Shown piece after piece: positions 17,662-62,821 of a DNA stretch of 64,000 bases (the stretch's first letter is position 1; each line of letters begins with the position of its first letter). The notes under the pieces are model-generated. The model was not told where the DNA came from. It did not search any database and saw only the letters and a list, made by a program, of their open reading frames with translations. The stretch spans positions 62,001 through 126,000 of the forward strand of contig NZ_JAAAMG010000014.1 in assembly GCF_010500815.1 (NCBI RefSeq), in the 5' to 3' direction. The position numbers and the translations under genes were made by a program. The DNA is from Jiella pacifica. Its GTDB lineage: Bacteria > Pseudomonadota > Alphaproteobacteria > Rhizobiales > Rhizobiaceae.

Positions 17662-20121
17662 TCAAGAGGCGATGCCGGCCTCGGCGAGGACGGCGAGGAT
17701 CGCCTTGCGATAGGCGACGAAGGCCGGGTCCGGCCCGATCGGCGCCGGCGGCTGCGGGACGGGGGGTGACGAGTCGACCACCGCCGCGGGTGCCCGCCGG
17801 GTGCCGCCCCGCACCGAATGCATCTTCCGCTCGGCCCAGACGATGACGTCGCGCACCTTCTGGCCGGCGAGGAACGGGTTCGCCTTGATCACGCCGGCGC
17901 CGACGACGGCGACGACCGCCGCTTCCGGATCGGCCGAGAGCACCTGGTTGGCCCCGTCCATGCCGAGGAAATGGGCGAGATAGAGCCGCCCCGCGGTGAT
18001 CCGATGGCCGCGCCTGACGAGATAAGCCTCGCCCTCCCGGGCAAGATTGCGGATCATCTCGCGCGACAGCGTCGGATCGTATCGAAGGTCGAGAATTTCC
18101 CGTGGCGAGAGGCTGCCGGCAAGGTCCGGCCGGTAGGTGCGGATCATCCGCAGCCAGGTCGAGGCGATGAACTGGCCGAGGCCGGTGGCGCTCGACAGGG
18201 GGTTCTTGGCGCGGGCATTGCCGCCGCTCTCCACCTTGACGATCCATGCGACGAGCTGATCGACGGCACCGGCCGCCGAGACCGCCGGCGCGGCATTGCC
18301 GGCAACAGCCGTGACGTCGGCGGAAACCGCGTGCTCGTTGGTGCCCAGAGGATTGATCGCCTCGCCGTCGGCATAGAGCTCGAAATGCAGGTGCGGCCCC
18401 GTCGACAGGCCGGTGGTGCCGACATAGCCGATCAGATCACCCGCCGCGAGCTTCTGCCCTGGTTTCAGCCCGGGCGCGAAGCGGCTGAGATGGGCATAGC
18501 GGGTCTCGCGCCCGCCGCCGTGATCGATTCGCACGAGATTGCCGTAGCCCTTCCCGTCCCCGGCATGAAGGAGAGTGCCGGCAAAGGCGGCATGGACCGC
18601 CGTTCCCCGCGGCGCCGCCCAGTCGACTCCCTTGTGGATGCGCACGGTCTTGAGGATCGGGTGCCGGCGCGGTCCGAAGGTGGAAGTCAGGACGCCCTCG
18701 ACCGGCACGACCATGCCGTTCGTCGCGGCGGCCCCGGATGACGTGCCGCTCGGGCCGGGCCTGCTCCGGCCGTCGTGACAGGCGGGGGCCTCGGTGGAGG
18801 GCCGGAACACGAAGCAGGCGAGCGGCCCTTCGCCCCGGCTGACGGCGGCGTAGCGCACGCCCGCCGCCCCGGCCAAGCCGTCGCCGGCAGGCTTGGCATC
18901 GTAGAGCAGGTCGAAGCGATCGTTCGGTGTCGCGATGGCGTCGAGGTCGTGATCCCGCGACAGAAGCATGATGGCTTCGCCGACCACCTCCATCGGCACG
19001 CCGTTGCGGATGCCGGTGGAATAGATCGCATCGAGCAGCCGGTACTGGCGCTCGCCGGGCGGCTCCTCTCCGGCCCTTCGCGCCAGATCGACCGCAGCGA
19101 AGGGATCGGCGCCGAGGGAAAAGCTGCCGCCGGTTTCGCGGGCCAGCGTGCCGAGATAGGTCTGGCCGGCATAGAGCGACAGTTGCGCGACGAGGAGCCT
19201 GGCGTAGCTGCTTGGCCGCAGCCCGCGGAGGCCGATCACCATGTCGGGCGCGAGTTCCTCGATCTTCAGGAGATCGCGGGCAGCCGCAGCGGCAGCCGAG
19301 GCGTCCTCAGGTTCGAAGCCACGCTCGCTCAGGAACCGGATGAGCGGCAGCGGCGCGAGTATCCGCTCGCCGAACGTCTCGGTCTCCGCGAAACGCTCGC
19401 TCTCCGGGCGCAGCCAGGCGAGGCTCGTCGTGTCCTCGATCCGGGTCTTCTCGAAGACCGGCAGGGGCGCTGTGCCTTGGTCGACGGTCTCGCCCCAACC
19501 GGCGCCCTCGGCATCCTCGATGCCGGCGCCTGCATTCAGCGGATCATTCCCCGCCGCCTCCTCGTCCTCCTCCCCGACCGCCAAGGCATCACCTTCGTCC
19601 AGCCCCGCCGGCGGGGCGTCGCGCTGGGCTTGAAAGAAGGCGAAGTCGGCCTGGCTGGAGGGGATCTGGACCATCAGCCGCTCGCCGACGCTGACCAGCC
19701 GGTCCGACAGGAGCATCAGTTTCGGCGATGAAACCGTTTCCGAAAGGCTCTCGGGCCGATCGACGACCCTCAGCCGGGACGCGGGCCCGGCCGCGCCGCC
19801 GAGCGTCACGATCAGCGGATCGCCGGGCAGGTCGAGCATCGTCGGCCCGGCGATGCCCGCCTCGTCGAGGTTGGCCTCGATTGCGATCTGCGCCGCACCG
19901 TCGTCCTCGACGGCGAGATTGAGTTCCGCGTCGATCGGAATCGTGTCGTTTGCCGGCACAAGGGCGTAGAGGGCCGCACCGAGGCACAGCACGGCGCAGA
20001 CCACTCCGGCGCCCAGCCGCTTTCGAACACGCCGCGCCGCGCGCTGGCGCCCTTGGTCGACACGGTCGCGGCGAAACGCCGGATCGATGCGGTGGGTCTC
20101 GGCTTCCTCGCGAACCGCCAT
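17662..20121 (-). CDS. M23 endopeptidase fused to a transglycosylase-like domain
   Basis: An 819-residue envelope protein. A membrane anchor (GAGVVCAVLCLGAALYALV) is near residue 40. A long middle region follows, then an M23 LytM domain with the zinc motifs HKGVD near residue 500 and HLHFE near 577. After it, at about residues 620-760, comes a lysozyme-like segment with the likely catalytic Glu in VKVESGGNARAKNP and the GLGQFIASTWLRM block seen in SLT transglycosylases. The protein could cut both peptide and glycan bonds of peptidoglycan, or one domain may only bind. Most rhizobial M23 proteins of this type end after the M23 domain, so the fusion is unusual. The C-terminal end is Pro-rich. 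Confidence 0.85.
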   Translation of the reverse strand: MAVREEAETHRIDPAFRRDRVDQGRQRAARRVRKRLGAGVVCAVLCLGAALYALVPANDTIPIDAELNLAVEDDGAAQIAIEANLDEAGIAGPTMLDLPGDPLIVTLGGAAGPASRLRVVDRPESLSETVSSPKLMLLSDRLVSVGERLMVQIPSSQADFAFFQAQRDAPPAGLDEGDALAVGEEDEEAAGNDPLNAGAGIEDAEGAGWGETVDQGTAPLPVFEKTRIEDTTSLAWLRPESERFAETETFGERILAPLPLIRFLSERGFEPEDASAAAAAARDLLKIEELAPDMVIGLRGLRPSSYARLLVAQLSLYAGQTYLGTLARETGGSFSLGADPFAAVDLARRAGEEPPGERQYRLLDAIYSTGIRNGVPMEVVGEAIMLLSRDHDLDAIATPNDRFDLLYDAKPAGDGLAGAAGVRYAAVSRGEGPLACFVFRPSTEAPACHDGRSRPGPSGTSSGAAATNGMVVPVEGVLTSTFGPRRHPILKTVRIHKGVDWAAPRGTAVHAAFAGTLLHAGDGKGYGNLVRIDHGGGRETRYAHLSRFAPGLKPGQKLAAGDLIGYVGTTGLSTGPHLHFELYADGEAINPLGTNEHAVSADVTAVAGNAAPAVSAAGAVDQLVAWIVKVESGGNARAKNPLSSATGLGQFIASTWLRMIRTYRPDLAGSLSPREILDLRYDPTLSREMIRNLAREGEAYLVRRGHRITAGRLYLAHFLGMDGANQVLSADPEAAVVAVVGAGVIKANPFLAGQKVRDVIVWAERKMHSVRGGTRRAPAAVVDSSPPVPQPPAPIGPDPAFVAYRKAILAVLAEAGIAS

Positions 20122-20364: not shown

Positions 20365-20850
20365 TCACGAGCGCGGCGACAGGAACAGCGTCCAGCGCGG
20401 CACCGCCTCGGTGTCGACCTCCAGGAACTTTGCCGGGCGGTAGCCCCGCTGGAAGCAGGCTTCGGTGCCGGCGATCTCGAAGCTCTTCGCGCCGACGCAC
20501 ATGTCGGTCGAACCATAGAGCACCGGGCGCCCGAAGACGTCTTCGGCATGGACATAGACGTAGCGGGCGGACAGTTCGTCGCGGATGGTGGTGGCACACC
20601 GGTTTGCGCCGACGATCCACCAGCCTCGGGTCGAAAAGCCGTCGCCGGCGTCGCGTCCGATGGCGACGTTGACGACGTCGAGGGACTGGTTGCAGACGAC
20701 GAACTGGGCCTCGGCCGCTCCTGCCGGCAACAGGCCCGCGGCAAGGACTGCCGCGCCGGCGAGGGCCGGCGAGCTTCCGCTGCGTCGGCGGCGGCCTGGA
20801 CATTCCAGGACATGCGCAGTTGCCGTCCGATCCCTACGCGACAGCGCCAT
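20365..20850 (-). CDS. DUF1036 exported protein
   Basis: A 161-residue protein with an Ala-rich signal sequence (AGAAVLAAGLLPAGAAEA) and a DUF1036 domain: FVVCNQSLDVVNVAIGRD, FSTRGWWIVGANRCATTI, FLEVDTEAVPRWTLFL. Four or more cysteines suggest periplasmic disulfides. Function is unknown. The ATG at 20850 has AAGGA 12 bases upstream; the frame remains open further back but that part crosses the divergent promoter region. It diverges from the Exb/Ton-like operon. Confidence 0.82.
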   Translation of the reverse strand: MALSRRDRTATAHVLECPGRRRRSGSSPALAGAAVLAAGLLPAGAAEAQFVVCNQSLDVVNVAIGRDAGDGFSTRGWWIVGANRCATTIRDELSARYVYVHAEDVFGRPVLYGSTDMCVGAKSFEIAGTEACFQRGYRPAKFLEVDTEAVPRWTLFLSPRS

Positions 20851-21004: not shown

Positions 21005-21535
21005 ATGGTCATCCGGCAGTTCGTTCGGACGACAGCGGCCGTCGCACCGGCCGCGCTTCTCGTCGCCGGTCTGGCGCTCGGCGCAGGAAGCGCTCTCGCC
21101 CAGGAGAGCGGCGCCGCGACGCAGGGCGCAGAGACAGGTGAGGCTCAGACCGGCGGCACCGAGGCCGGCGCGCCGCCGGCAGCGCAGAGCGGTCTCGGCC
21201 TCGAACTCAACAACGCGGTCGACGACGCCGGCCTCTGCCGCCTGTCCTACGTCGCGGTGAACGACACGGGCCAGCCGCTCGCAAAGGTCTCCTACGACGT
21301 CGTCGTCTTCGACCAGAACGGCCAGGTCTCGCAGTTCCTCGTCCTGCAGTTCGGGCAGCTTCCCGCCGGCAAGACCAAGGTGGTGCAGTTCGATCTTGCC
21401 GATCAGCCCTGCGCCGGGATCTCGCGCATCCTCGTCAACGACATCGCCGAATGCGAGACGAGCCAGGGCAGCGCCGGCATCTGCATGGAGGCGCTCCGCC
21501 CGACGTCGCGCACCGCCATCACCTTCGACACGTAA
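21005..21535 (+). CDS. Periplasmic protein, first gene of the Exb/Ton-like operon
   Basis: A 176-residue exported protein with signal peptide (APAALLVAGLALGAGSALAQ) and an acidic Gly/Ala linker before a compact beta-rich domain: LCRLSYVAVNDTGQPLAKVSY, VVVFDQNGQVSQFLVLQF, LPAGKTKVVQFDLADQPC. Four cysteines in the mature domain could form disulfides. I do not recognise an enzyme motif; similar proteins seem to accompany ExbB/ExbD-like genes in other Hyphomicrobiales. GGAGGA lies just upstream of the ATG at 21005. Only 18 bases separate it from the ExbB-like gene, so it is probably cotranscribed and may be the client or partner of the complex. Confidence 0.75.
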   Translation: MVIRQFVRTTAAVAPAALLVAGLALGAGSALAQESGAATQGAETGEAQTGGTEAGAPPAAQSGLGLELNNAVDDAGLCRLSYVAVNDTGQPLAKVSYDVVVFDQNGQVSQFLVLQFGQLPAGKTKVVQFDLADQPCAGISRILVNDIAECETSQGSAGICMEALRPTSRTAITFDT

Positions 21536-21553
21536 GGGAGCGGCGGCAGCGCC

Positions 21554-22249
21554 ATGTGGGAGATCATCGCCTCGCAGCTCCGCTCCAGCGCCGGCCCGAT
21601 CCTCGTCGTTCTCGTGCTCCTGTCGATCGCCGGCCTTGCCGTGTCGATCGTCAAGGCGATCGAGTTCCGGCGGGCCGGGATCGGCAGGCCCAGCGAGAGC
21701 CGGTCTTTCGCCGGCAACGCCGGCCGGGCGCCGTTGCTGCGCGCCAACGTCCTCGCTGCAGCCAAAGGCGCCCTATCCGAAGCCCCGCCCGGGCCGGAAA
21801 GCCGCGAGCGCGCCGGCGCGCTGGCCGAGGAGGCGGCGATCGAGGGCCTTTCGCGGCTTTCGCGGCATCTGCCGTTTCTCGACGCAATCGTCCAGGCCGC
21901 GCCGATGCTCGGCCTGCTCGGCACGGTCTTCGGCATGATCGAGGTGTTCTTCACCATGTCCGGGACGCAAGGGGCGATCGATCCGGCGCTCCTGTCCGCC
22001 GGCATCTTTGCGGCCCTGATCACGACTGCCGCAGGGCTCGTCGTCGCCATCCCGTTCTTCTTCGCCGCCGCCTATTTCGACGCCGCGCTCGAAACCGAGA
22101 CGCGGGCGATCGAGGGACTGATCCTCCGGGCGATCCACGGTGACGCGCCGCGCAGCGCGGCCTATTCGCGCCGACGCCTTGCGACGATCCCGTCCGACGA
22201 GGAAACCGCGAGCGGCGACCTCGACCGGGCGCTCGCCCGGCCGCGCTGA
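21554..22249 (+). CDS. ExbB/TolQ/MotA-family proton-channel subunit
   Basis: A 231-residue inner-membrane protein with three hydrophobic segments. The second carries APMLGLLGTVFGMIEVFF and the third TTAAGLVVAIPFFFAAAYF, matching the conserved transmembrane motifs of ExbB and TolQ. Such proteins form a pentamer around an ExbD or TolR dimer and use proton flow to drive a TonB or TolA protein. Gene order (ExbB-like, ExbD-like, ExbD-like, TonB-like) supports a complete motor. It is not clearly TolQ, since no pal, tolB or ybgC is adjacent. A shorter N-terminal loop and an Arg-rich tail are seen. Confidence 0.87.
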   Translation: MWEIIASQLRSSAGPILVVLVLLSIAGLAVSIVKAIEFRRAGIGRPSESRSFAGNAGRAPLLRANVLAAAKGALSEAPPGPESRERAGALAEEAAIEGLSRLSRHLPFLDAIVQAAPMLGLLGTVFGMIEVFFTMSGTQGAIDPALLSAGIFAALITTAAGLVVAIPFFFAAAYFDAALETETRAIEGLILRAIHGDAPRSAAYSRRRLATIPSDEETASGDLDRALARPR

Positions 22250-22252
22250 TCC

Positions 22253-22705
22253 ATGCGCCGGCCGCGGGCAAGAGCACGACGAGGCTTCGTCCTGACGCCG
22301 CTCGTCGACGTGATCTTTCTCCTTGTGATCTTCTTCGCCCTGTCCTCGCGCATCGCCCCCTTCGGCCTGATCCCCGTCAGCGGACAGGGGCGTGCGACCG
22401 TCGGCGGCAACGGCACCGAGACGACGCCCCGTTCCGTGGCACCGGCCGACGAGACCCTCGTCGTCCTGCGCGGAAGGGCGCGGCTCGGATCGCGCGTCCT
22501 TGCGCTCGACGCGCTTCGACCGGCGGCCATCCGGATGCGCGAAGCCGGCACCCGGTCGGTCCTTCTCCTGACCGCACGGAGCGCCCGCACCGAGGATGTC
22601 GCCAGGGCTCTCGATGCGCTCCAGCGCGCCGGCGTCGAAAACGTCCGTCTGATCGCGGCGCCAGCCGCAAGCGCCGAGACCGGCGGTGGGGAGGCTTCGC
22701 CATGA
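22253..22705 (+). CDS. ExbD/TolR-family protein 1 (channel Asp present)
   Basis: A 150-residue protein with one N-terminal transmembrane helix (LTPLVDVIFLLVIFFAL), a periplasmic domain and an Ala/Gly-rich end. The Asp in LVDVIF corresponds to the protonatable Asp25 of ExbD. It starts three bases after the ExbB-like stop and overlaps the next ExbD-like gene by four bases. It should pair with the ExbB-like protein to form the ion channel. Confidence 0.85.
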   Translation: MRRPRARARRGFVLTPLVDVIFLLVIFFALSSRIAPFGLIPVSGQGRATVGGNGTETTPRSVAPADETLVVLRGRARLGSRVLALDALRPAAIRMREAGTRSVLLLTARSARTEDVARALDALQRAGVENVRLIAAPAASAETGGGEASP

Positions 22706-23151
22706 GCCTCCGACGCTCCGCTGCGAGCCGGGTTCTGCGGCCCGCCCGCCGCCGCCCCCGAGCCGATCCGGCCATGCCGACGATCAACATCGTCTTCCTC
22801 CTCCTCCTGTTCTTCCTCCTCGCCGGCACGCTCACCGCGCCGGGCGAGAGCGAGATCGACCCGGCAAGGGTCGGCGCCGAGGCCGGCGAGCGCCTGCCGC
22901 GACCGCTGCTGGCGATCACCGAGGACGGGGCGCTCAGCCTCGACGGGCGGACGATCGCCCGCGCCGAACTCGCCGAGGCGATCGCCGGGCTCACCGCGCC
23001 GGACGGCGGCGACACACCGATCCTCTACGTGCTGGCGGCGCGCGACCTCGCGGGAAGCGTTCTCGTCCAGATCCTCGGCGAGGCTTCGGCCGCCGGCGCC
23101 GCGACGAGCCTCGTCGTCCTCAATGCCGGCGGCGGGCAGGCCTCGCCATGA
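22702..23151 (+). CDS. ExbD/TolR-family protein 2 (Asp replaced by Asn)
   Basis: A 149-residue ExbD-like protein. Its transmembrane segment MPTINIVFLLLLFFLLAG aligns with that of ExbD, but the channel Asp is an Asn. The N-terminal cytoplasmic part is strongly basic (RRSAASRVLRPARRRPRA). The periplasmic domain is of usual size. Start and stop overlap both neighbours by four bases (ATGA), so translation is coupled. It probably forms a heterodimer with the Asp-bearing ExbD1; it cannot carry the proton itself if the family mechanism holds. Confidence 0.82.
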   Translation: MSLRRSAASRVLRPARRRPRADPAMPTINIVFLLLLFFLLAGTLTAPGESEIDPARVGAEAGERLPRPLLAITEDGALSLDGRTIARAELAEAIAGLTAPDGGDTPILYVLAARDLAGSVLVQILGEASAAGAATSLVVLNAGGGQASP

Positions 23152-26015
23152 GGGCGCAGACTCGGCTCTGGGCGGCGGCCGGCGGCCTGTCGCTCGCCAT
23201 CCATGCCGGGCTCGGAGCGCTGGCCCTCGCGCTCATGCCCGAGACGGGGCGGCAACCGGCGAAAGAAACCGCGATCACCATCGAAGAGATCGAGACCAGA
23301 ACCACCAGCCTCACGCCGGCCCGCGCAACGAGAGCCCATCCCGCCCCCGCCGGCAGGGTGGATCCGGTGCGATCCGAGGCGCAGGCCCTGTCCGCCACGG
23401 CGCCGGCGAGCCGGGCAGACCGTGTGCCACCGACGTCGATCGACCCGCTGGGCCACGCCTCGGCAGAGACGTTGTCGGCGGCCGCGCCGCAAAAGCAACT
23501 TCGGCCGGACGATGCCGGACAGCAACCCGTCACGCTCGGTCCGTCGGCATCGATCGCGCCCGTGCCGAACGAGCCGATCCCCGCCCATGAAAGCCGTCCG
23601 CAGTCGACCGAACTCGCCGCCGTTCAGCCTGACACGGCCACGACGAACACTGCCAGACCGTCGCCTCCCGTCCCGGAGCCCGAGACAGCCGCCCCCGCCG
23701 CGCCGAAGGCGGTCGCTGCGGCCGAATTGCGGGGGATCGTCGCTCGCCCGGCGGCGCCCTTGCCGGTCGAATCTGCCGCGCCTCGGCCACTCGCGACGTC
23801 GCCGAGCGAAGCAGTCGCTGCGACGACCCGCCTCGCCGAGGTGGCAACGCCCGCCAGCCCGGAAGAACTTGCCGGGACGGCGCCAGGCACGGCGGCCACG
23901 AGAGCCTCGCCGGAACAGTTGTCGCCTTCATCCACGAACGAAAATTCTGCCGCCGAAACCGTGCGTCCTGCCCCCGCCGAATCCGCCAAGCTCGAACCGC
24001 AATCGCCCGAACCGACCGCGGCCGTTCGGCCGGCTGAATCTCCTCCGAGGCCGATGATTGCCGCGAGGACGCGGCCAAGCGCAATCGAGGCCGCCGGCGG
24101 CAGCGGAAACATCCTGGTCCCGCCGAAGTCGCCGGAACGAGCGGAGACCGTCATGGAGGTCGCGCGAGAGCTTTCACCGACGGGCCCCGGACCAGCTCTA
24201 CAGGCGGCCGAAGCTGGCGATATGGCGTCCCCGGTCCTGCCCCGGGTCCTGAGGACGGAAACCGGCGCGGAGACGCCGGCGACTCCCCTCTCGCCGCGCA
24301 TGGCGGCTCGAGTTGGAGCAGCGCCACCGGAGGCCTCGTCGCCCGCACCGATCGCCTTGGCGCAGTCCACCGGCGCCGGTCCGGTGCTGACGGCGAAACG
24401 CGCCGACGAGAGTGCGACGATCTTTTTGCCCCACCCGGTAGAGCAGCCTCGACCTCAAGAGGTCGAGGCCAGTGGGTCTTTCGAGCCGCTCGCGTCACGA
24501 AGGCCGCAACCGGGCCTGGCCGTTTCGGCGGCCACCCTCGCAGCGGCGGACGCCGAGACGATGGCCCTTGCAGCGGCGTCTCCCGTCGTTCCGCCGGCGA
24601 GACGGCGCCCCTCGCCCGTCGCCGCGGCCCGTCCGAGGCCGGCATCATCCGGGCGTCAGGACGAAACCCTGCTGGTCGGTGAGACGGCGGTGGGAACGAT
24701 GGCCCCGAGAGCGGCCCCGAAGGAGCCGCCCGACTTGCCGGCGCCGACGATTCTCGACGGGCGAGCCGACCCGGCCGTGCGGGTGGCCGCGTCAGCCGCC
24801 GTCCCCGGCCGTCTCGCGGAGGCGAAAGGGGCGGCGGCCGAAGCGGTGCCTCCCGCGCCCTTGACCGGTAACGTCTCGGGTGGAGCGATCGTCCCGCGGG
24901 TGACGGCCGAAGTCGCCACCGCTTCGGATGCGCCCGACATCGCTCCGGAAGTGACGGCCGGCGCTGCCGCCACTCCGACTTCGGGGCTGCTGGCTGTCGT
25001 CCCGCGGGTCGGTGCCGATGCGGCCGCCGCTTCGACGCCGGGGCGTCTCGCCGTCGCTCCGCGGGCCCCTGCAGGTTCGATACTGGCCGCTTCGACACCT
25101 GCCGCCGACCTGGCGGCGTCGACCGCGCCGGTCATCCAGCCGCCCCAAACGGAACCGGCCAAGGCCGCCGCCGCGGTCTCCGCCTCCGTTTCCGGCAGGT
25201 TCGCACCGGTCGAGCCCAGCCAGGTCGCCTCCGCACGACCCGGCCGGATCGCGCCCGCCCCAGCGGCCCGTCGCGAAGAGGCCGAGCTGGCCGCGCTGTC
25301 GCCCCGCCGCCCGCAGACGATCGCCGGAACGCCGGGAGGCACGCATGAGCAGGCGCAAAGCGACGACGACGGGCCGCAGGCGACGCTCGCCGAGCTCGTC
25401 GCCGCCTATCCCGGGGGCAATTGCTTCGCCGCCTTGACGGAGGCCGGCAAGGCCGCCGGCGAGTTCCGCATCACCGCGCTCTCGGACGATCAGGGCCGGC
25501 TCGAGGACTTTGCCGACACCCTCATCGAGCAATCGCCGAAAGAGGCCTTCCGCCGCGTCTATATCGACGGCGGCGAAGTCGCCGAGGCGCAATGCCGCGC
25601 CCTCGCCTCGCTGCCGGACATGCCGGGCTATCCAGCCTATGGCCTGACGCTGGAGCTCGACCAGCGCCGGATCGTCAGCGGCAGGACGCTCGCCGGCGGC
25701 ATCGCCGGCGTGCCGGCGGGGGACACGCTCGACCTTCTCCTCGTCGACGACGAAGGCCTCGTGCAGTCGCTCTCGAGCTACCTCACCCGGAAGGGCGCCA
25801 CGGCAAGGTTCGAAGTGCCCGTCACCGCCTCGGGTCCCGAGACCCGCACGGCGCAGATCCTGATCGCCCTGACCCTGCCCGAAGCGCTGATCCATGCCGA
25901 CGGCGCAGGCGGCGAGCCGGCCGGCCCGTTCTTCGAGGAGCTGGCCGAAACGCTGGCGGCAAAGGGCCTGAAGGGCGAGTTTGCCGTCGACCACTTCCTC
26001 GTCAGGCCGAGATAG
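23148..26015 (+). CDS. Very long TonB-like energy transducer with novel C-terminal domain
   Basis: A 955-residue protein. The N-terminal helix reads GGLSLAIHAGLGALALALM and keeps the S-x3-H motif (S15, H19) that TonB needs to couple to ExbB/ExbD. About 700 residues of Ala/Pro/Glu-rich linker follow, including an imperfect repeat (PRVTAEVATAS, PRVGADAAAAS). The last 210 residues form a compact domain: YPGGNCFAAL, RRVYIDGGEVAEAQCRAL, DTLDLLLVDDEGLVQSLSSYL. It lacks the TonB C-terminal fold; from memory it resembles C-terminal domains of some rhizobial Ser/Thr kinases. It overlaps ExbD2 by four bases and ends the operon. Role as force transmitter is inferred from context and the N-terminal motif. 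Confidence 0.8.
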   Translation: MRAQTRLWAAAGGLSLAIHAGLGALALALMPETGRQPAKETAITIEEIETRTTSLTPARATRAHPAPAGRVDPVRSEAQALSATAPASRADRVPPTSIDPLGHASAETLSAAAPQKQLRPDDAGQQPVTLGPSASIAPVPNEPIPAHESRPQSTELAAVQPDTATTNTARPSPPVPEPETAAPAAPKAVAAAELRGIVARPAAPLPVESAAPRPLATSPSEAVAATTRLAEVATPASPEELAGTAPGTAATRASPEQLSPSSTNENSAAETVRPAPAESAKLEPQSPEPTAAVRPAESPPRPMIAARTRPSAIEAAGGSGNILVPPKSPERAETVMEVARELSPTGPGPALQAAEAGDMASPVLPRVLRTETGAETPATPLSPRMAARVGAAPPEASSPAPIALAQSTGAGPVLTAKRADESATIFLPHPVEQPRPQEVEASGSFEPLASRRPQPGLAVSAATLAAADAETMALAAASPVVPPARRRPSPVAAARPRPASSGRQDETLLVGETAVGTMAPRAAPKEPPDLPAPTILDGRADPAVRVAASAAVPGRLAEAKGAAAEAVPPAPLTGNVSGGAIVPRVTAEVATASDAPDIAPEVTAGAAATPTSGLLAVVPRVGADAAAASTPGRLAVAPRAPAGSILAASTPAADLAASTAPVIQPPQTEPAKAAAAVSASVSGRFAPVEPSQVASARPGRIAPAPAARREEAELAALSPRRPQTIAGTPGGTHEQAQSDDDGPQATLAELVAAYPGGNCFAALTEAGKAAGEFRITALSDDQGRLEDFADTLIEQSPKEAFRRVYIDGGEVAEAQCRALASLPDMPGYPAYGLTLELDQRRIVSGRTLAGGIAGVPAGDTLDLLLVDDEGLVQSLSSYLTRKGATARFEVPVTASGPETRTAQILIALTLPEALIHADGAGGEPAGPFFEELAETLAAKGLKGEFAVDHFLVRPR

Positions 26016-26060: not shown

Positions 26061-27074
26061 TCAGTGGCGGGGCGCCCGCGGCTCGGCGACCCGGTCCGGC
26101 CGGCCGAGAACGCCGCCGGCAGCGCCGACGGCCATGCCGAGCAGCATCGCCACGAAGGCGGCGAGCGAGGCCCGCGCCAGCGCACTCGCGGCGGCGCGGC
26201 GCGCTGCTTCCATCTCCGTGCGGGCCTGGGCGAAACGCTCCGCGAAGCCGTCGAAGCGCCGCTCGGCTTCGGCCCTGGCGACGCCGGCCACTCCAGCGAT
26301 GGCATCGACAGCGGCGCCGCGCGCCTGCTGGTCCCCGTCGGAGAGTGCCGCGACGACCTCGGCATAAACGACGTCGCGATCGGCTGGGGCGGCCGGTGCG
26401 GCAGATCCGGACGCCGGCGCACTTTGGTCGGGCGTCGCGGCCCCGGCCTCGGCCTCGGCCGCGCCGCCACTCGGTCGAGGAGCCGGCGCGAAGAGTTGTT
26501 CCGAGCTGCCCTTCAGGGAATCGGCGAGCGACGACGAGCCCGGGGCGAGCGCTTCGGCCGCCGTCGCCATCTCGCCGACCGACTGGCCGAGGACGCCGAA
26601 GGCGCCACCGACGAGGCTCGCCGCGCCGCTGCTGAGGAGATAGAGGGCGAGAAGGGCGGTGACCGCCCAGGTGACGACCCCGTGCAGCGCCCCGTCGATC
26701 CGCGACGGGACGCCGGCGAAGCGACCGGCCGCGAAGGCCCCGGCGAAGACGCCGACGAGCACCACGAAGACGGCCCAGAGGCCGCCAACCGAGACTATCC
26801 CGGAGGCCGTGCCGGTCGGCGACGAGAGGCCGACGCCGAGCCCGAAAAGGCCGAGCATGAACTGGATCATCAAGGCGAGGATCGCTCCGGCGAGAATGGC
26901 GCCCCAGGAGACGCGCCAGAGGTTTGCGGCCGGCGCACTCGCGCGCTCGCGCCCAAGATCGTTGATGCGTGTTTCCGCGTGGCGCGCCCGATCGCGCCCC
27001 GCACCCGACAAATCAGCGATTTCCGCCTCCCTACACTGGTTCGAGGGGGTCGAGCGCCCCGAGCGCCACCCCAT
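26061..27074 (-). CDS. Multi-pass membrane protein, YrzE/PhnA-like (copy 1)
   Basis: An integral membrane protein with helices at WGAILAGAILALMIQFMLGLF, LWAVFVVLVGVFAGAFAAG, a third around VVTWAVTALLALYLLSSG and a C-terminal LAAFVAMLLGMAVGAAGGVLG. A large Ala-rich soluble loop holds VVYAEVVAALSDGDQQARGA and a helix EAERRFDGFAERFAQA. Similar proteins are annotated YrzE or PhnA-like, function unknown. The next gene (27168-28154) has the same plan, so they are tandem paralogues. Start is uncertain: ATG at 27074, ATG at 27152, or a downstream TTG preceded by GGGAGG. Confidence 0.7.
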   Translation of the reverse strand: MGWRSGRSTPSNQCREAEIADLSGAGRDRARHAETRINDLGRERASAPAANLWRVSWGAILAGAILALMIQFMLGLFGLGVGLSSPTGTASGIVSVGGLWAVFVVLVGVFAGAFAAGRFAGVPSRIDGALHGVVTWAVTALLALYLLSSGAASLVGGAFGVLGQSVGEMATAAEALAPGSSSLADSLKGSSEQLFAPAPRPSGGAAEAEAGAATPDQSAPASGSAAPAAPADRDVVYAEVVAALSDGDQQARGAAVDAIAGVAGVARAEAERRFDGFAERFAQARTEMEAARRAAASALARASLAAFVAMLLGMAVGAAGGVLGRPDRVAEPRAPRH

Positions 27075-27167
27075 TTCTTTCGGCCCCTGCGGCCTCCGCG
27101 AATGGGAGGCAGCCGCAGGCCATGATCGCAGAACGAACGCGGTCCGCGCCACGGTCGCCCGCTCCGC

Positions 27168-28154
27168 TTAGTGCCATCGCGCGCCGAGCTCCACCACCCG
27201 GCTGCGGTGCCGACCCAGAACACCGCCGAACAGACAGGCGAGCAAGGCGGCCAAGAGCGCAACGAAAGCGGAGAAGCAGGCCGTGCTGACGGCGCCCGCC
27301 GCCGCGGCGGCGGAACGGCGCGCGCTTCGCAACGCCCGATCATGCGCCTGCTGCCAAGCGATCAGCCGTCGCTCGGCCACCGGCTTCGTCACGCCGGCCG
27401 CAGCCTCGATCGCATCGACGGCGGCTGCAACGGCCGCTTCGTCCGCCGTTTCGTCGATACCGGCGAAGACAGTCGTCAGCGCGGTCCCGGTGTCGCTCCG
27501 GCTCGTCCCCGCGCGATCGGGAACACGGTCCTCGGCGCTTGCGGGATCGAGAAACATCTGAACCTCGCCTCGCAGTGCCGAGAGCTCCACGGAGGCGTCC
27601 GGCGACGGCACACGGGTAGCCACCGCCATCGCCGCGACGGCATTACCGACCGGACCGAGACTGCGGTCGACGAGCGCAGGCGGCCGCAGGGTCAGGATGA
27701 CCACCGCGGCGAGCAGCGCACTCGAAAAGGTCAGGAGGCCGCAGAACAGCGCGTCGCGGAACCGGTGGGCATCGGCGAGACGCGCGCTGGCAAAACCGCC
27801 GATCGCGAAGGCGAGCGCGCTCGCCGCGACCCAGAAGACCCCGGCGATCGAGACGAAGGGCGCTCCCCGTCCGGCCTGGTACAAGTCCTCGATCAAGCCG
27901 AAGCCGGCCAGCGCGGCGCTGAGTTGCACCATCGCGGCAACGAGAACACCGGCCGCGGCCGCCTGAAAGACGGCGTCGGTCGATGCAAATGTCGGCGCTT
28001 GCTTCTGACGCTGCAAACTTCGTCTTCGCCTCAACTGAAGGGTCGACCGGCGGCAGCCGGTCACTGCGTCGTTGCCTAGCCATTCACTGCGGAAAACGCC
28101 AGCATCTCGTGCCTTGCCGGCTGATGGTTCGTCTTTCTGACGGTTTCTTTGCAT
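27168..28154 (-). CDS. Multi-pass membrane protein, YrzE/PhnA-like (copy 2)
   Basis: About 328 residues with helices at QAAAAGVLVAAMVQLSAALA, VFWVAASALAFAIGGFASA, LLTFSSALLAAVVILTL and C-terminal FSAFVALLAALLACLFGGVLG. The soluble part has ETADEAAVAAAVDAIEAAAGV and VAERRLIAWQQA, matching the layout of the neighbouring gene. The C-terminal GGVLGRHRSRVVE parallels GGVLGRPDRVAE in copy 1, supporting paralogy. Function unknown. The ATG at 28154 (MQRNRQ) is chosen; the frame is open upstream only because it runs opposite rpsU. Confidence 0.68.
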   Translation of the reverse strand: MQRNRQKDEPSAGKARDAGVFRSEWLGNDAVTGCRRSTLQLRRRRSLQRQKQAPTFASTDAVFQAAAAGVLVAAMVQLSAALAGFGLIEDLYQAGRGAPFVSIAGVFWVAASALAFAIGGFASARLADAHRFRDALFCGLLTFSSALLAAVVILTLRPPALVDRSLGPVGNAVAAMAVATRVPSPDASVELSALRGEVQMFLDPASAEDRVPDRAGTSRSDTGTALTTVFAGIDETADEAAVAAAVDAIEAAAGVTKPVAERRLIAWQQAHDRALRSARRSAAAAAGAVSTACFSAFVALLAALLACLFGGVLGRHRSRVVELGARWH

Positions 28155-28267
28155 CTCGACAAGACCCGGACGATCTGATAACGGAGCGCATCTTGCGGTG
28201 CGCGGTGCCTCGCCAGAACAGACCGCATTCTGAACCCAATTATCTAGCGCTATAAACGGAACACTCG

Positions 28268-28495
28268 GTGCAGATACTCGTCCGCGACAACAATGTGGAT
28301 CAGGCGCTCCGCGCGCTGAAGAAGAAGATGCAACGCGAAGGCATCTTCCGCGAAATGAAAATGCGCAACTTCTACGAAAAGCCTTCGGAGAAGCGGGCGC
28401 GTGAAAAGGCCGAGGCCGTGCGTCGGGCTCGCAAACTCGCCCGCAAGCGCGCGCAGCGCGAAGGGGTTGCCGGCGGCGGTCGCGCCGCACCTTGA
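28268..28495 (+). CDS. rpsU: 30S ribosomal protein S21
   Basis: A 75-residue S21: [39 protein letters not shown] and a basic C-terminus. S21 joins the 30S subunit near the anti-Shine-Dalgarno and helps initiation. The start is GTG at 28268, seven bases after CGGA. The TPR lipoprotein downstream is its usual neighbour in Hyphomicrobiales. Confidence 0.97.
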
Positions 28496-28691
28496 GGCTT
28501 GAGCCTCGCGGACAAATCGTCGCGCGGCCTGGCGGCGCGGCCATCCTTGCATGGGCCCGCCGAGACCTTTCTAAAGGTCGTTTTGCTGGCCGTTGACGGA
28601 CCGGATACATCGCCGAGGGCAACACCCGCGGCGATTTTTCTGCGTTGGCAGCACGAACGATTTCAAAATACGGCCGCTTGTGCGAGATAGT

Positions 28692-29725: not shown

Positions 29726-30857
<1,132 letters not shown>

Positions 30858-30883
<26 letters not shown>

Positions 30884-31238
30884 GCCGCCCGTTCCGGCAG
30901 GCTCGATGAGCGCGCCGGGAAGCGCGCTGCCCGATCACGAGGCAGGGCCCGAGGCACGGGTGCGCCGGGCCCTCATGCAGTTGCGCGAAGGCGGCTTCCT
31001 GCCGCGCCCCGACGTCGCTGCGGGATCGGCGGCGCTCGGCGCAGGCGCGCTCGGCGCCGGAGCCGTCGGCGCCCTGGCCCTCGGTGCCTGCGCGCTTGGC
31101 GCCGTCGCCGTCGGGGCGTTCGCCATCGGGCGTCTGTCCGTCGGCCGGGCAAGGATCGAGGAGGCGGAGATCGGCCGCCTGAGGATCGGCCGGCTCGAGG
31201 TGGAGAGTTTCGTTCCAACCAGCCGAAGGCTCGGATAG
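30858..31238 (+). CDS. Degenerate pentapeptide-repeat protein
   Basis: A 126-residue protein. After a helical N-terminal half (EARVRRALMQLREGGFLPRP) come about 12 units with strict five-residue period: ALGAG, ALGAG, AVGAL, ALGAC, ALGAV, AVGAF, AIGRL, SVGRA, RIEEA, EIGRL, RIGRL, EVESF. The central residue is always Leu, Ile or Val. This suggests a right-handed quadrilateral beta-helix like pentapeptide-repeat proteins, although the classic A(D/N)LxX code is not met. Similar runs occur in other proteobacterial hypotheticals. Function unknown. GGAG lies eight bases before the ATG; the gene starts inside queG. Confidence 0.68.
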
Positions 31239-31243
31239 AGCCC

Positions 31244-61670: not shown

Positions 61671-62821
61671 CTACTCCGCCGGATTGGGGACGGCCCCGGC
61701 CGTCTCCCCCTTTTCGGCCTCTTTGGCCCGCCGCCCCGCCCGGAAGGCGTCCCAGCCATGGTCGATGGTGCCGACGATGCCGCGCGGCAGAAGCAGCGTG
61801 ACGAAGACGAACAGGCCGCCCAGAAGGAACAGCCAGAATTCCGGCGCGACGGCAGTGAAGACGGTCTTGCCGTAATTGACCAGCAGCGCACCGATCACCG
61901 GACCGATCAGCGTGCCCCGGCCGCCGACCGCCGCCCAGACGACGATCTCGATGGAATTGACCGGCGAGAACTCGCCGGGATTGATGATGCCGACCTGCGG
62001 GACGTAGAGCGCCCCGGCGATCCCCGCCATGACGGCCGAGACGGTGAAGGCGAAGAGCTTCACATATTCCGGCCGCCAGCCGATGAAGCGGGTGCGGCTT
62101 TCGGCATCGCGCACCGCGATCATCAGCTTGCCGAGCTTCGACCGGGTGATCCAGCCGACGAGAAGCACGCCGAGTGCGAGGGCTATGCAGCTCACGGCGA
62201 AGAGGCCGGCCCTCGTCGCATCGGCCTGGATCGAAAAGCCGAGGATGTCCTTGAAGTCGGTGAGGCCGTTATTGCCGCCGAAGCCCATGTCGTTGCGGAA
62301 AAAGGCGAGGAGCAGGGCGTAGGTCATCGCCTGGGTGATGATCGACAGATAGACGCCGGTGACGCGGGAGCGGAAGGCGAAGAAGCCGAAGACGAAGGCG
62401 AGCAGCCCCGGAACCAGCATCACCATGAGCGCGGCGAACCAGAACTGGTCGAAGCCGGTCCAGTACCACGGCAGTTCCTTCCAATTCAGGAACACCATGA
62501 AGTCCGGCAGCTCGGGATTGCCGTAGACGCCGCGGGCGCCGATCTGGCGCATCAGATACATGCCATGGCATAGCCGCCGAGGGCGAAGAAGGCGCCATGG
62601 CCGAGCGACAGGATGCCGCAATAGCCCCAGACGAGATCCAGCGCGAGGGCGAGCAGCGCGTAGCAGACATATTTGCCGAACAGCGGCACGAGATAGGACG
62701 GCACGTGCAGCGGATGATCCGCCGGCAGCGCAAGGTTCGACAGCGGCACGAGGATCGCCGCGGCCAGGATCGCGGCGATGAGGATCCAGACACGGGCACC
62801 GAGGAAGCGGGCGAGGATCAT
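61671..62821 (-). pseudogene. urtC: urtC, urea ABC permease, broken by a frameshift
   Basis: Two frames together make a complete UrtC. The N-terminal part (MILARFLGARVWILIAAIL to GHGAFFALGGYAM) starts at 62821. At about 62561-62566 the frame shifts: the reading ATG-GCA-TGT runs to a TGA at 62552, while the rest of the protein (MYLMRQIGARGVYGNPELPD onward, to AGAVPNPAE) is in another frame. Adding one G (ATGGGCATG) restores the UrtC sequence GYAMGMYLMRQIG. Either a real one-base deletion or a sequencing error. Downstream translation could restart at the ATG of MYLM, giving about 297 residues lacking the first helices. Confidence 0.82.

Follow-up and report, generated by a model that had tools for sequence, protein, structure and literature searches.

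The window analysed here, a 64,000-nucleotide stretch of the Jiella pacifica genome (NZ_JAAAMG010000014.1, positions 62,001 to 126,000; contig C6 of genome G000, where G-labels denote genomes and L-labels fetched loci), contains a compact five-gene operon for a secreted or periplasmic protein (A), an ExbB-type channel, two ExbD-type proteins (ExbD1 and ExbD2) and a TonB-like transducer (E). To judge from its sequence, the C-terminal domain of E is homologous to the C-terminal, periplasmic domain of the PpkA-type kinases of type VI secretion systems (T6SS), PpkA being the kinase that licenses T6SS assembly. The connection between the operon and type VI secretion is well supported. The shared domain, the shared loci, the co-occurrence and the families of the motor proteins are established; the coupling of E to the motor, its partner and the direction of signalling are what we infer. 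The boldest reading, to which we give less than an even chance, is that an Exb/Ton-type motor with a lopsided ExbD pair (Asp/Asn) has been built into the T6SS of some alphaproteobacteria, where E and PpkA may meet by way of their common domain and mechanical energy may gate a Hanks-type kinase and toxin injection.

The C-terminal domain of E is shared with PpkA-type kinases

A search covering this genome and relatives, 61 in all, found the domain in E of Jiella and, as weak matches, at the end of four further proteins with open frames 715-750 residues long, of which this genome encodes one. The domain-bearing protein of this genome is a Ser/Thr kinase (Pkinase, 5.8e-34), which bears out a likeness to rhizobial Ser/Thr kinases that an earlier, sequence-only reading of the DNA had suggested. 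With profile A2 the domain was detected in 30 of the 297 genomes of the order and in three of the 385 genomes of the class, one of which (G140, E 8.3e-4, partial) is not confirmed, as no domain match was found when its stretch (L181) was rescanned. The genome searches scored a limited number of first-look candidates, and absences taken from them are soft. Kinase domains are present on the open reading frames (ORFs) of 35 of the 51 collected copies, and two Cys and one Gly are invariant across all 51, from E proteins and kinases alike; the cysteine pair suggests a possible disulphide in the periplasm. A scan of the 51 related domains gave neither TonB_C nor BON (PF04972) among the families listed, and DUF4384 (PF14326) matched the second half of the domain in one member, at E 0.14.

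A tree of the domain was built with the L030 row relabelled E by hand (its E start lies on L031) and the contig-cut, kinase-like copies of L031 and L151 left as U. Twelve E copies group together (support 89/91, not starred), and those of G653 and G702 group with their own kinases (98/91, starred). By the approximately unbiased (AU) test, the data remain compatible with one clade of all E copies (p 0.192). The tree prefers two exchanges of the domain, one exchange is also acceptable, and we do not claim two origins.

The kinases themselves belong to type VI secretion. In the loci read (L033, L155, L162, L168, a set of ten loci, L241 and L242; most Tss names assigned by eye, some with Pfam backing), their neighbours include TssL, TssM, TagF, PppA (a phosphatase of the PP2C family) and further Tss proteins, and because TssM, TagF and PppA are among them we regard the kinases as PpkA-type T6SS kinases. 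Pfam matches are IcmF and TagF_N at the kinase locus of this genome and IcmF, TagF_N and PP2C at that of G653. Contig C4 of this genome has the gene order TssK-TssL-TssM-TagF-PppA-kinase, and contig C1 carries TssA, B, C, Hcp, E, F, G and ClpV (TssB and TssC by Pfam). Across the order, TssB was found in 28 of the 30 domain-bearing genomes versus 47 of 297 overall (Fisher p 1.7e-24, ignoring relatedness). The two that lack it are G059, which has TssC, and G475 (83% complete, 450 contigs), where neither was found. Secreted proteins that look caspase-like by eye recur near T6SS kinase loci (L072:691-2304, L154:2533-4254, L157:3679-5217, L162:1014-2366 and L168:11340-12584).

E lies within T6SS loci in other lineages

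Six genomes outside Jiella carry an E with the PpkA-type domain (G059, G312, G475, G591, G653 and G702), and in all of these except G475 it lies within a T6SS locus; in G475, ExbD1, ExbD2 and E stand on a 3.1 kb contig that is too short to judge linkage. PpkA adjoins E in G312 and G591 and is one gene away in G653 and G702. The latter two share a row on one strand, TssL-TssM-TagF-PppA-PpkA-ExbD2-E, the last four genes of which form an operon-like run, with ExbB, A and DUF1036 on the opposite strand and ExbD1 beyond. In G312 the order is M23, a caspase-like gene, DUF1036 and A to E, followed by PpkA, PppA and TssM. G591 has a run from TssL to PpkA that is convergent with E-ExbD2-ExbD1, then VgrG, FHA and TssA to ClpV. 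The G059 locus is spread over two contigs, the first holding a contig-cut kinase-like half, M23, DUF1036, A-ExbB-ExbD1-ExbD2 and the start of E, and the second the end of E followed by ClpV, TssG, TssF, TssE, Hcp and TssC. Among 32 loci fetched around the shared domain (L150-L181), DUF1036 is nearby in 13 and a full-length M23 homologue in 10; genes for both also adjoin the operon in the window.

The sequence-only reading had suggested a possible outer-membrane or wall process other than siderophore uptake. It missed the link to PpkA: with the kinases of PpkA type and E inside the T6SS loci of relatives, the envelope process it left unnamed is most likely type VI secretion. It had also held that homologues with unlinked genes would refute its proposal, and such cases do exist in part. 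In L154 and L157 the parts are distributed over both strands of one T6SS locus; in G591, M23-DUF1036-A-ExbB stands ~25 kb from E, past the T6SS structural genes; and in G627, where the neighbour of A is a kinase-like half truncated by the contig end, the 4.4 kb contig carries neither ExbB nor ExbD.

A further long, TonB-like protein rich in Ala and Pro is encoded beside A and ~2 kb from TssB in G517 (L235:9421-11763) and G599 (L236:12067-12977). That of G517 ends in a BON match (1.3e-6) and, more weakly, one to DUF4384; neither ExbB nor ExbD was seen near it. That of G599 is cut by the contig end. They are possibly a third, divergent type of E.

Organisation of the operon

The five genes, all confirmed as ORFs, form one tight block on the same strand (Table 1), with gaps of 18 bases between A and ExbB and 3 bases between ExbB and ExbD1, and with ATGA overlaps at 22702 (ExbD1/ExbD2) and 23148 (ExbD2/E), exactly as the earlier reading had them. 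Its assignment to an Exb/Ton-type motor is supported by Pfam: the ExbB protein scores 91.8 bits on PF01618 (cut-off 22.9), which places it in the MotA/TolQ/ExbB family, and ExbD1 and ExbD2 score 37.6 and 39.4 bits on PF02472 (cut-off 25.4), so that both belong to the ExbD/TolR family. Protein A does not reach the cut-off of any family in Pfam or NCBIfam; four Cys are invariant among nine aligned members of its family. The operon is more than a chance arrangement, since it recurs in the genus, its E domain is intact in eight of ten genus genomes, and the domain has diverged from that of G003 with nonsynonymous changes (dN 0.066) below synonymous ones (dS 0.446).

Table 1. Positions of the operon genes and their neighbours in the window.
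Feature	Position	Strand	Basis
A, secreted/periplasmic protein, 176 residues	21005..21535	+	Signal-peptide-like start by eye
B, ExbB/TolQ-type proton channel, 231 residues	21554..22249	+	PF01618 (MotA_ExbB), 3.6e-26
C, ExbD1, 150 residues	22253..22705	+	PF02472, 2.8e-9; transmembrane motif TPLVDVIFLL, channel Asp present
D, ExbD2, 149 residues	22702..23151	+	PF02472, 7.5e-10; transmembrane motif PTINIVFLL, Asn for channel Asp
E, TonB-like transducer, 955 residues	23148..26015	+	SLAIH helix, Ala/Pro-rich linker, PpkA-type C-terminal domain
C-terminal domain of E, residues 747-955 (209)	25386..26012	+	Common to T6SS PpkA-type kinases
DUF1036 secreted protein, divergent neighbour	20365..20811	-	PF06282, 1.2e-31
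Membrane-anchored peptidoglycan hydrolase (by family)	17662..20121	-	Peptidase_M23 PF01551, 1.4e-32; SLT PF01464, 0.0011, sub-threshold

A single N-terminal helix bearing an S-x3-H motif is a feature of TonB. The sequence-only reading had noted such a helix in E, and by eye there is indeed one N-terminal hydrophobic helix, with S15-L-A-I-H19. Among 14 E proteins of the PpkA-domain type (eight tallied by script, six read by eye) the His is present in all, as S-x3-H in 12 and A-x3-H in two. The linker, put earlier at about 700 residues, is 713 residues long here (23% Ala, 15% Pro); its size does not define the family, as E proteins measured with guessed start codons range from ~426 to ~1141 residues. 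Neither full-length E nor its end domain has a Pfam or NCBIfam match up to E 5, a search limited by HMMER filters that discard most matches above ~0.1. In particular, no Pfam match to TonB_C (PF03544 or related) was obtained with the whole protein or the domain, in agreement with the earlier judgement that the end is not the TonB fold. We therefore do not file E as TonB, and its membrane half probably works like that of TonB.

Two related-looking membrane proteins are encoded tail to tail with E at 26061-28625 (-), the nearer of which stays beside E or its remnant in L022-L029. An ORF at 30690-31238 (+) contains a run of GALGAGALGAGAVGALALGACALG at about 30930-31240 and looks like a short repeat protein.

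The two ExbD proteins are unequal

ExbD1 carries the transmembrane Asp (LVDV) and ExbD2 an Asn (INIV) in all 25 two-ExbD clusters, eight of them from the genus and both module kinds included; the tally leaves out L080, L091, L100, L107 and L239, where at most one ExbD was picked up, and L265-L284. A protonatable transmembrane Asp is thus not present in both proteins, and ExbD2 is an ExbD by profile without it. If ExbD1 and ExbD2 make up the usual ExbD dimer inside the ExbB ring, only one side would carry protons via the Asp position.

Related modules end in TonB_C

The A family extends well beyond the T6SS-type module, to 36 of the 385 genomes of the class and 128 of the 297 genomes of the order, and its common form ends differently. 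Of the 36 class loci (L072-L107), 16 have an ExbB gene adjoining A. Fifteen class loci were read by eye: 12 have a TonB_C-like transducer, L072 is of the PpkA type, and L080 and L094 have none. The TonB_C-like profile was built from eight of the 36 (L074, L077, L079, L081, L087, L090, L091 and L100), so that only 20 further A loci of the order (L265-L284), drawn mostly from the stronger matches and not at random, are a test of it; here 18 have a TonB_C-like transducer, 10 an ExbB and none a PpkA-type domain. Pfam confirmed TonB_C in all six transducers sent, five of them from L265-L284. L072 alone among the 56 A loci has a PpkA-type domain or kinase in the fetched stretch, where other T6SS genes were not searched. 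Modules of both types, T6SS and TonB_C, are present in three genomes, G312, G591 and G653, which implies that the two are specialised. The T6SS-type module is thus a specialised Ton-type motor whose output domain has been exchanged for a PpkA sensor domain.

Distribution within Jiella

Ten genomes of the genus were available, including this one: eight have an intact E, G008 a remnant and G002 none. TssB and TssC were found in G000-G007 only, and the PpkA domain in seven genomes (G000, G001 and G003-G007), all with an intact E. In G008, which gave no TssB, TssC or PpkA matches, A to ExbD2 and the front of E are deleted. By eye this is a single deletion (L029:8500-9574) that fuses the beginning of A with the late part of the E linker, with ExbB, ExbD1 and ExbD2 gone; the E remnant has an internal stop.

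Some details of the assemblies bear on these genomes. G001 has ExbD2 split between two frames (L023:3844-4486) and TssC in three pieces (G001:C1:1325219-1326147), which are either sequencing errors or decay. In G003 the operon region is found on two contigs, C44 (L022) and C49 (L032), with the same protein matches, either as an assembly duplicate or as a true copy.

Structure of the C-terminal domain

An AlphaFold2 model of the end domain (eight sequences; predicted local distance difference test score, pLDDT, 87.3; predicted template-modelling score, pTM, 0.86) has an alpha/beta part (residues ~1-82 of the domain) followed by an immunoglobulin (Ig)-like beta-sandwich (84-209). In Foldseek and VIA comparisons of the whole domain, residues 84-209 match Ig-like sandwiches (Z ~10, root-mean-square deviation (rmsd) 2.1-3.4, 90-102 residues aligned), mostly antibodies and also the DUF4785 structure 4kh9. 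The Ig-like fold is common and, as modelled here, says nothing about function or ligand.

Modelled alone, the first part (pLDDT 87.8) has the order helix-strand-strand-helix-strand-helix. With residues 1-85 as query, Foldseek found no match below E 0.001, and the best VIA rows, with Z 6.0 or less, are MamM C-terminal domains. DolP (6xmv) scores Z 5.4 against the first part (rmsd 2.3, 60 aligned), tied with unrelated rows, and hhalign of the 51-member domain profile with the L235 protein gave a weak alignment (Prob 6.6, E 0.0056). A BON-like fold of residues ~1-82 is at best a possibility. Sequence searches of the PDB with A2, A1 and A5 returned nothing under E 0.01. The idea that a known fold would assign a role to the domain was dropped, the Ig-like part being uninformative and the matches to the first part not decisive.

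Discussion

We propose the following mechanism. ExbB and the unequal ExbD1/ExbD2 pair, the families of which are clear, would form an Exb-type motor driven by the proton-motive force. E, with the S-x3-H helix and linker described above, would couple to this motor, span the periplasm by means of the flexible linker and, driven by ExbB-ExbD, present its PpkA-type domain some way out from the inner membrane. The domains of E and PpkA may bind the same periplasmic partner, for which protein A, the DUF1036 protein and the M23 hydrolase are candidates, or they may bind each other. Movement of E could in this way report on, or set up, a site in the envelope and gate phosphorylation of Fha or TssL by PpkA. 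The parts of this proposal are not equally secure. In its T6SS-locus form the five-gene module is very probably a T6SS accessory, and the unlinked operon of Jiella is probably one as well; that the main role of the module is input to PpkA has, in our estimation, somewhat less than an even chance.

Several observations weigh against a T6SS role of this kind. No PpkA-domain E was found in 24 of the 30 domain-bearing genomes of the order, from which it follows that E is not needed for T6SS in general, and no ExbB was detected near A in 20 of the 36 class loci. Within Jiella, the operon lies outside the T6SS locus (along the G001 chromosome, TssB comes at 1.32 Mb, E at 1.66 Mb and PpkA at 3.61 Mb), and G002 has TssB and TssC with neither E nor the PpkA domain found. 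In G009 all of A to E is intact, yet no TssB, TssC or PpkA domain was found, and A has neither M23 nor DUF1036 next to it; unless its T6SS was lost recently, this genome is the weightiest argument against a function in T6SS alone.

Three other explanations were considered. The motor might serve the T6SS mechanically: E, driven by it, would place or hold the membrane complex, much as the outer-membrane anchor TssW positions the T6SS in Acidovorax, or would help the M23/SLT hydrolase to open the wall. The M23 and DUF1036 genes, which adjoin the operon and occur near the PpkA-type domain elsewhere, fit this idea, and TssW, in the portion of the study cited, binds PpkA and TssM and sets the position of the T6SS (PMC12607579). 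However, the domain of E is that of the kinase and points first to the kinase pathway, and the hydrolase gene beside the operon is on the opposite strand and not part of it. We consider the mechanical explanation rather unlikely.

A second possibility, which we regard as rather improbable, is a general envelope motor unrelated to type VI secretion, in which E, equipped with a borrowed periplasmic ligand-binding domain in common with PpkA, maintains the outer membrane or wall and the T6SS neighbourhood is secondary. It draws on the wide distribution of A modules ending in TonB_C, on the survival of the operon in G009 and on its separation from T6SS genes in Jiella. The placement of E in T6SS loci in all five of the judgeable non-Jiella genomes speaks against it, as does the presence of both kinds of module in G312, G591 and G653, which indicates specialisation. 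The third, a conventional TonB-ExbB-ExbD apparatus that serves outer-membrane receptors and whose TonB end has diverged, can be rejected as very improbable. The ExbB, ExbD, S-x3-H helix and Pro-rich linker are Ton-like and the genome has six Plug-domain receptors (all on other contigs, in line with the sequence-only reading, which saw no TonB-dependent receptor nearby), but E ends in a homologue of the PpkA domain that gives no TonB_C match, and the genome encodes two other TonB_C proteins, one of them ~1.5 kb from another ExbB-family gene.

The operon has relatives among known systems. It shares with TonB-ExbB-ExbD and TolQ-TolR-TolA an ExbB-type channel, ExbD proteins and a transducer with an N-terminal S-x3-H helix and Pro-rich linker, and differs from them in the missing TonB_C match, the unequal ExbD pair, the fifth, periplasmic protein A and the lack of a receptor on the contig. 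The alphaproteobacterial A-(ExbB-ExbD-ExbD)-TonB_C modules have homologous A, ExbB, ExbD1 (Asp) and ExbD2 (Asn) proteins and, unlike the operon, a standard TonB_C end. Like the operon, the AglRQS-Glt gliding motor of Myxococcus combines one ExbB-like with two ExbD-like proteins and the TonB-like GltG/GltJ; unlike it, AglQ and AglS are both said, in the section of the article cited, to have the Asp, and they serve gliding rather than secretion (PMC9389320).

With the T6SS threonine-phosphorylation pathway (PpkA, PppA, Fha and TagF) the operon has in common the periplasmic domain of PpkA, a kinase that is fed by periplasmic and outer-membrane proteins. As far as the cited passages go, activation of PpkA has been described for few species only, the inputs being the TagQRST complex in Pseudomonas, the periplasmic protein RtkS in Serratia and the outer-membrane protein TssW in Acidovorax; RtkS binds PpkA through the periplasmic domain of the kinase, and TagQRST reportedly occurs in Pseudomonas only (PMC6082577, PMC12607579). 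None of the three is described there as an Exb/Ton-type motor, unlike the system that we propose, and it is plausible that the module plays a role equivalent to theirs. Agrobacterium tumefaciens, according to the part of the study cited, has no TagQRST orthologues (PMC3953482), and a 2023 review attributes promotion of its PpkA, in the portion used here, to an unknown protein (PMC10482370).

Among the matches listed in a literature search, in which subscription journals were mostly outside coverage, no title or abstract linked ExbB/ExbD to PpkA or the T6SS in the way that we suggest for the Jiella operon. If input to PpkA is indeed its role, this would be, to our knowledge, the first Ton-type motor whose target is a signalling kinase instead of outer-membrane receptors. 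For some relatives of A. tumefaciens in the same order, the operon provides a concrete candidate for the input to PpkA. As a natural motor with an unequal ExbD pair, it may also offer a test of how many Asp residues such motors need.

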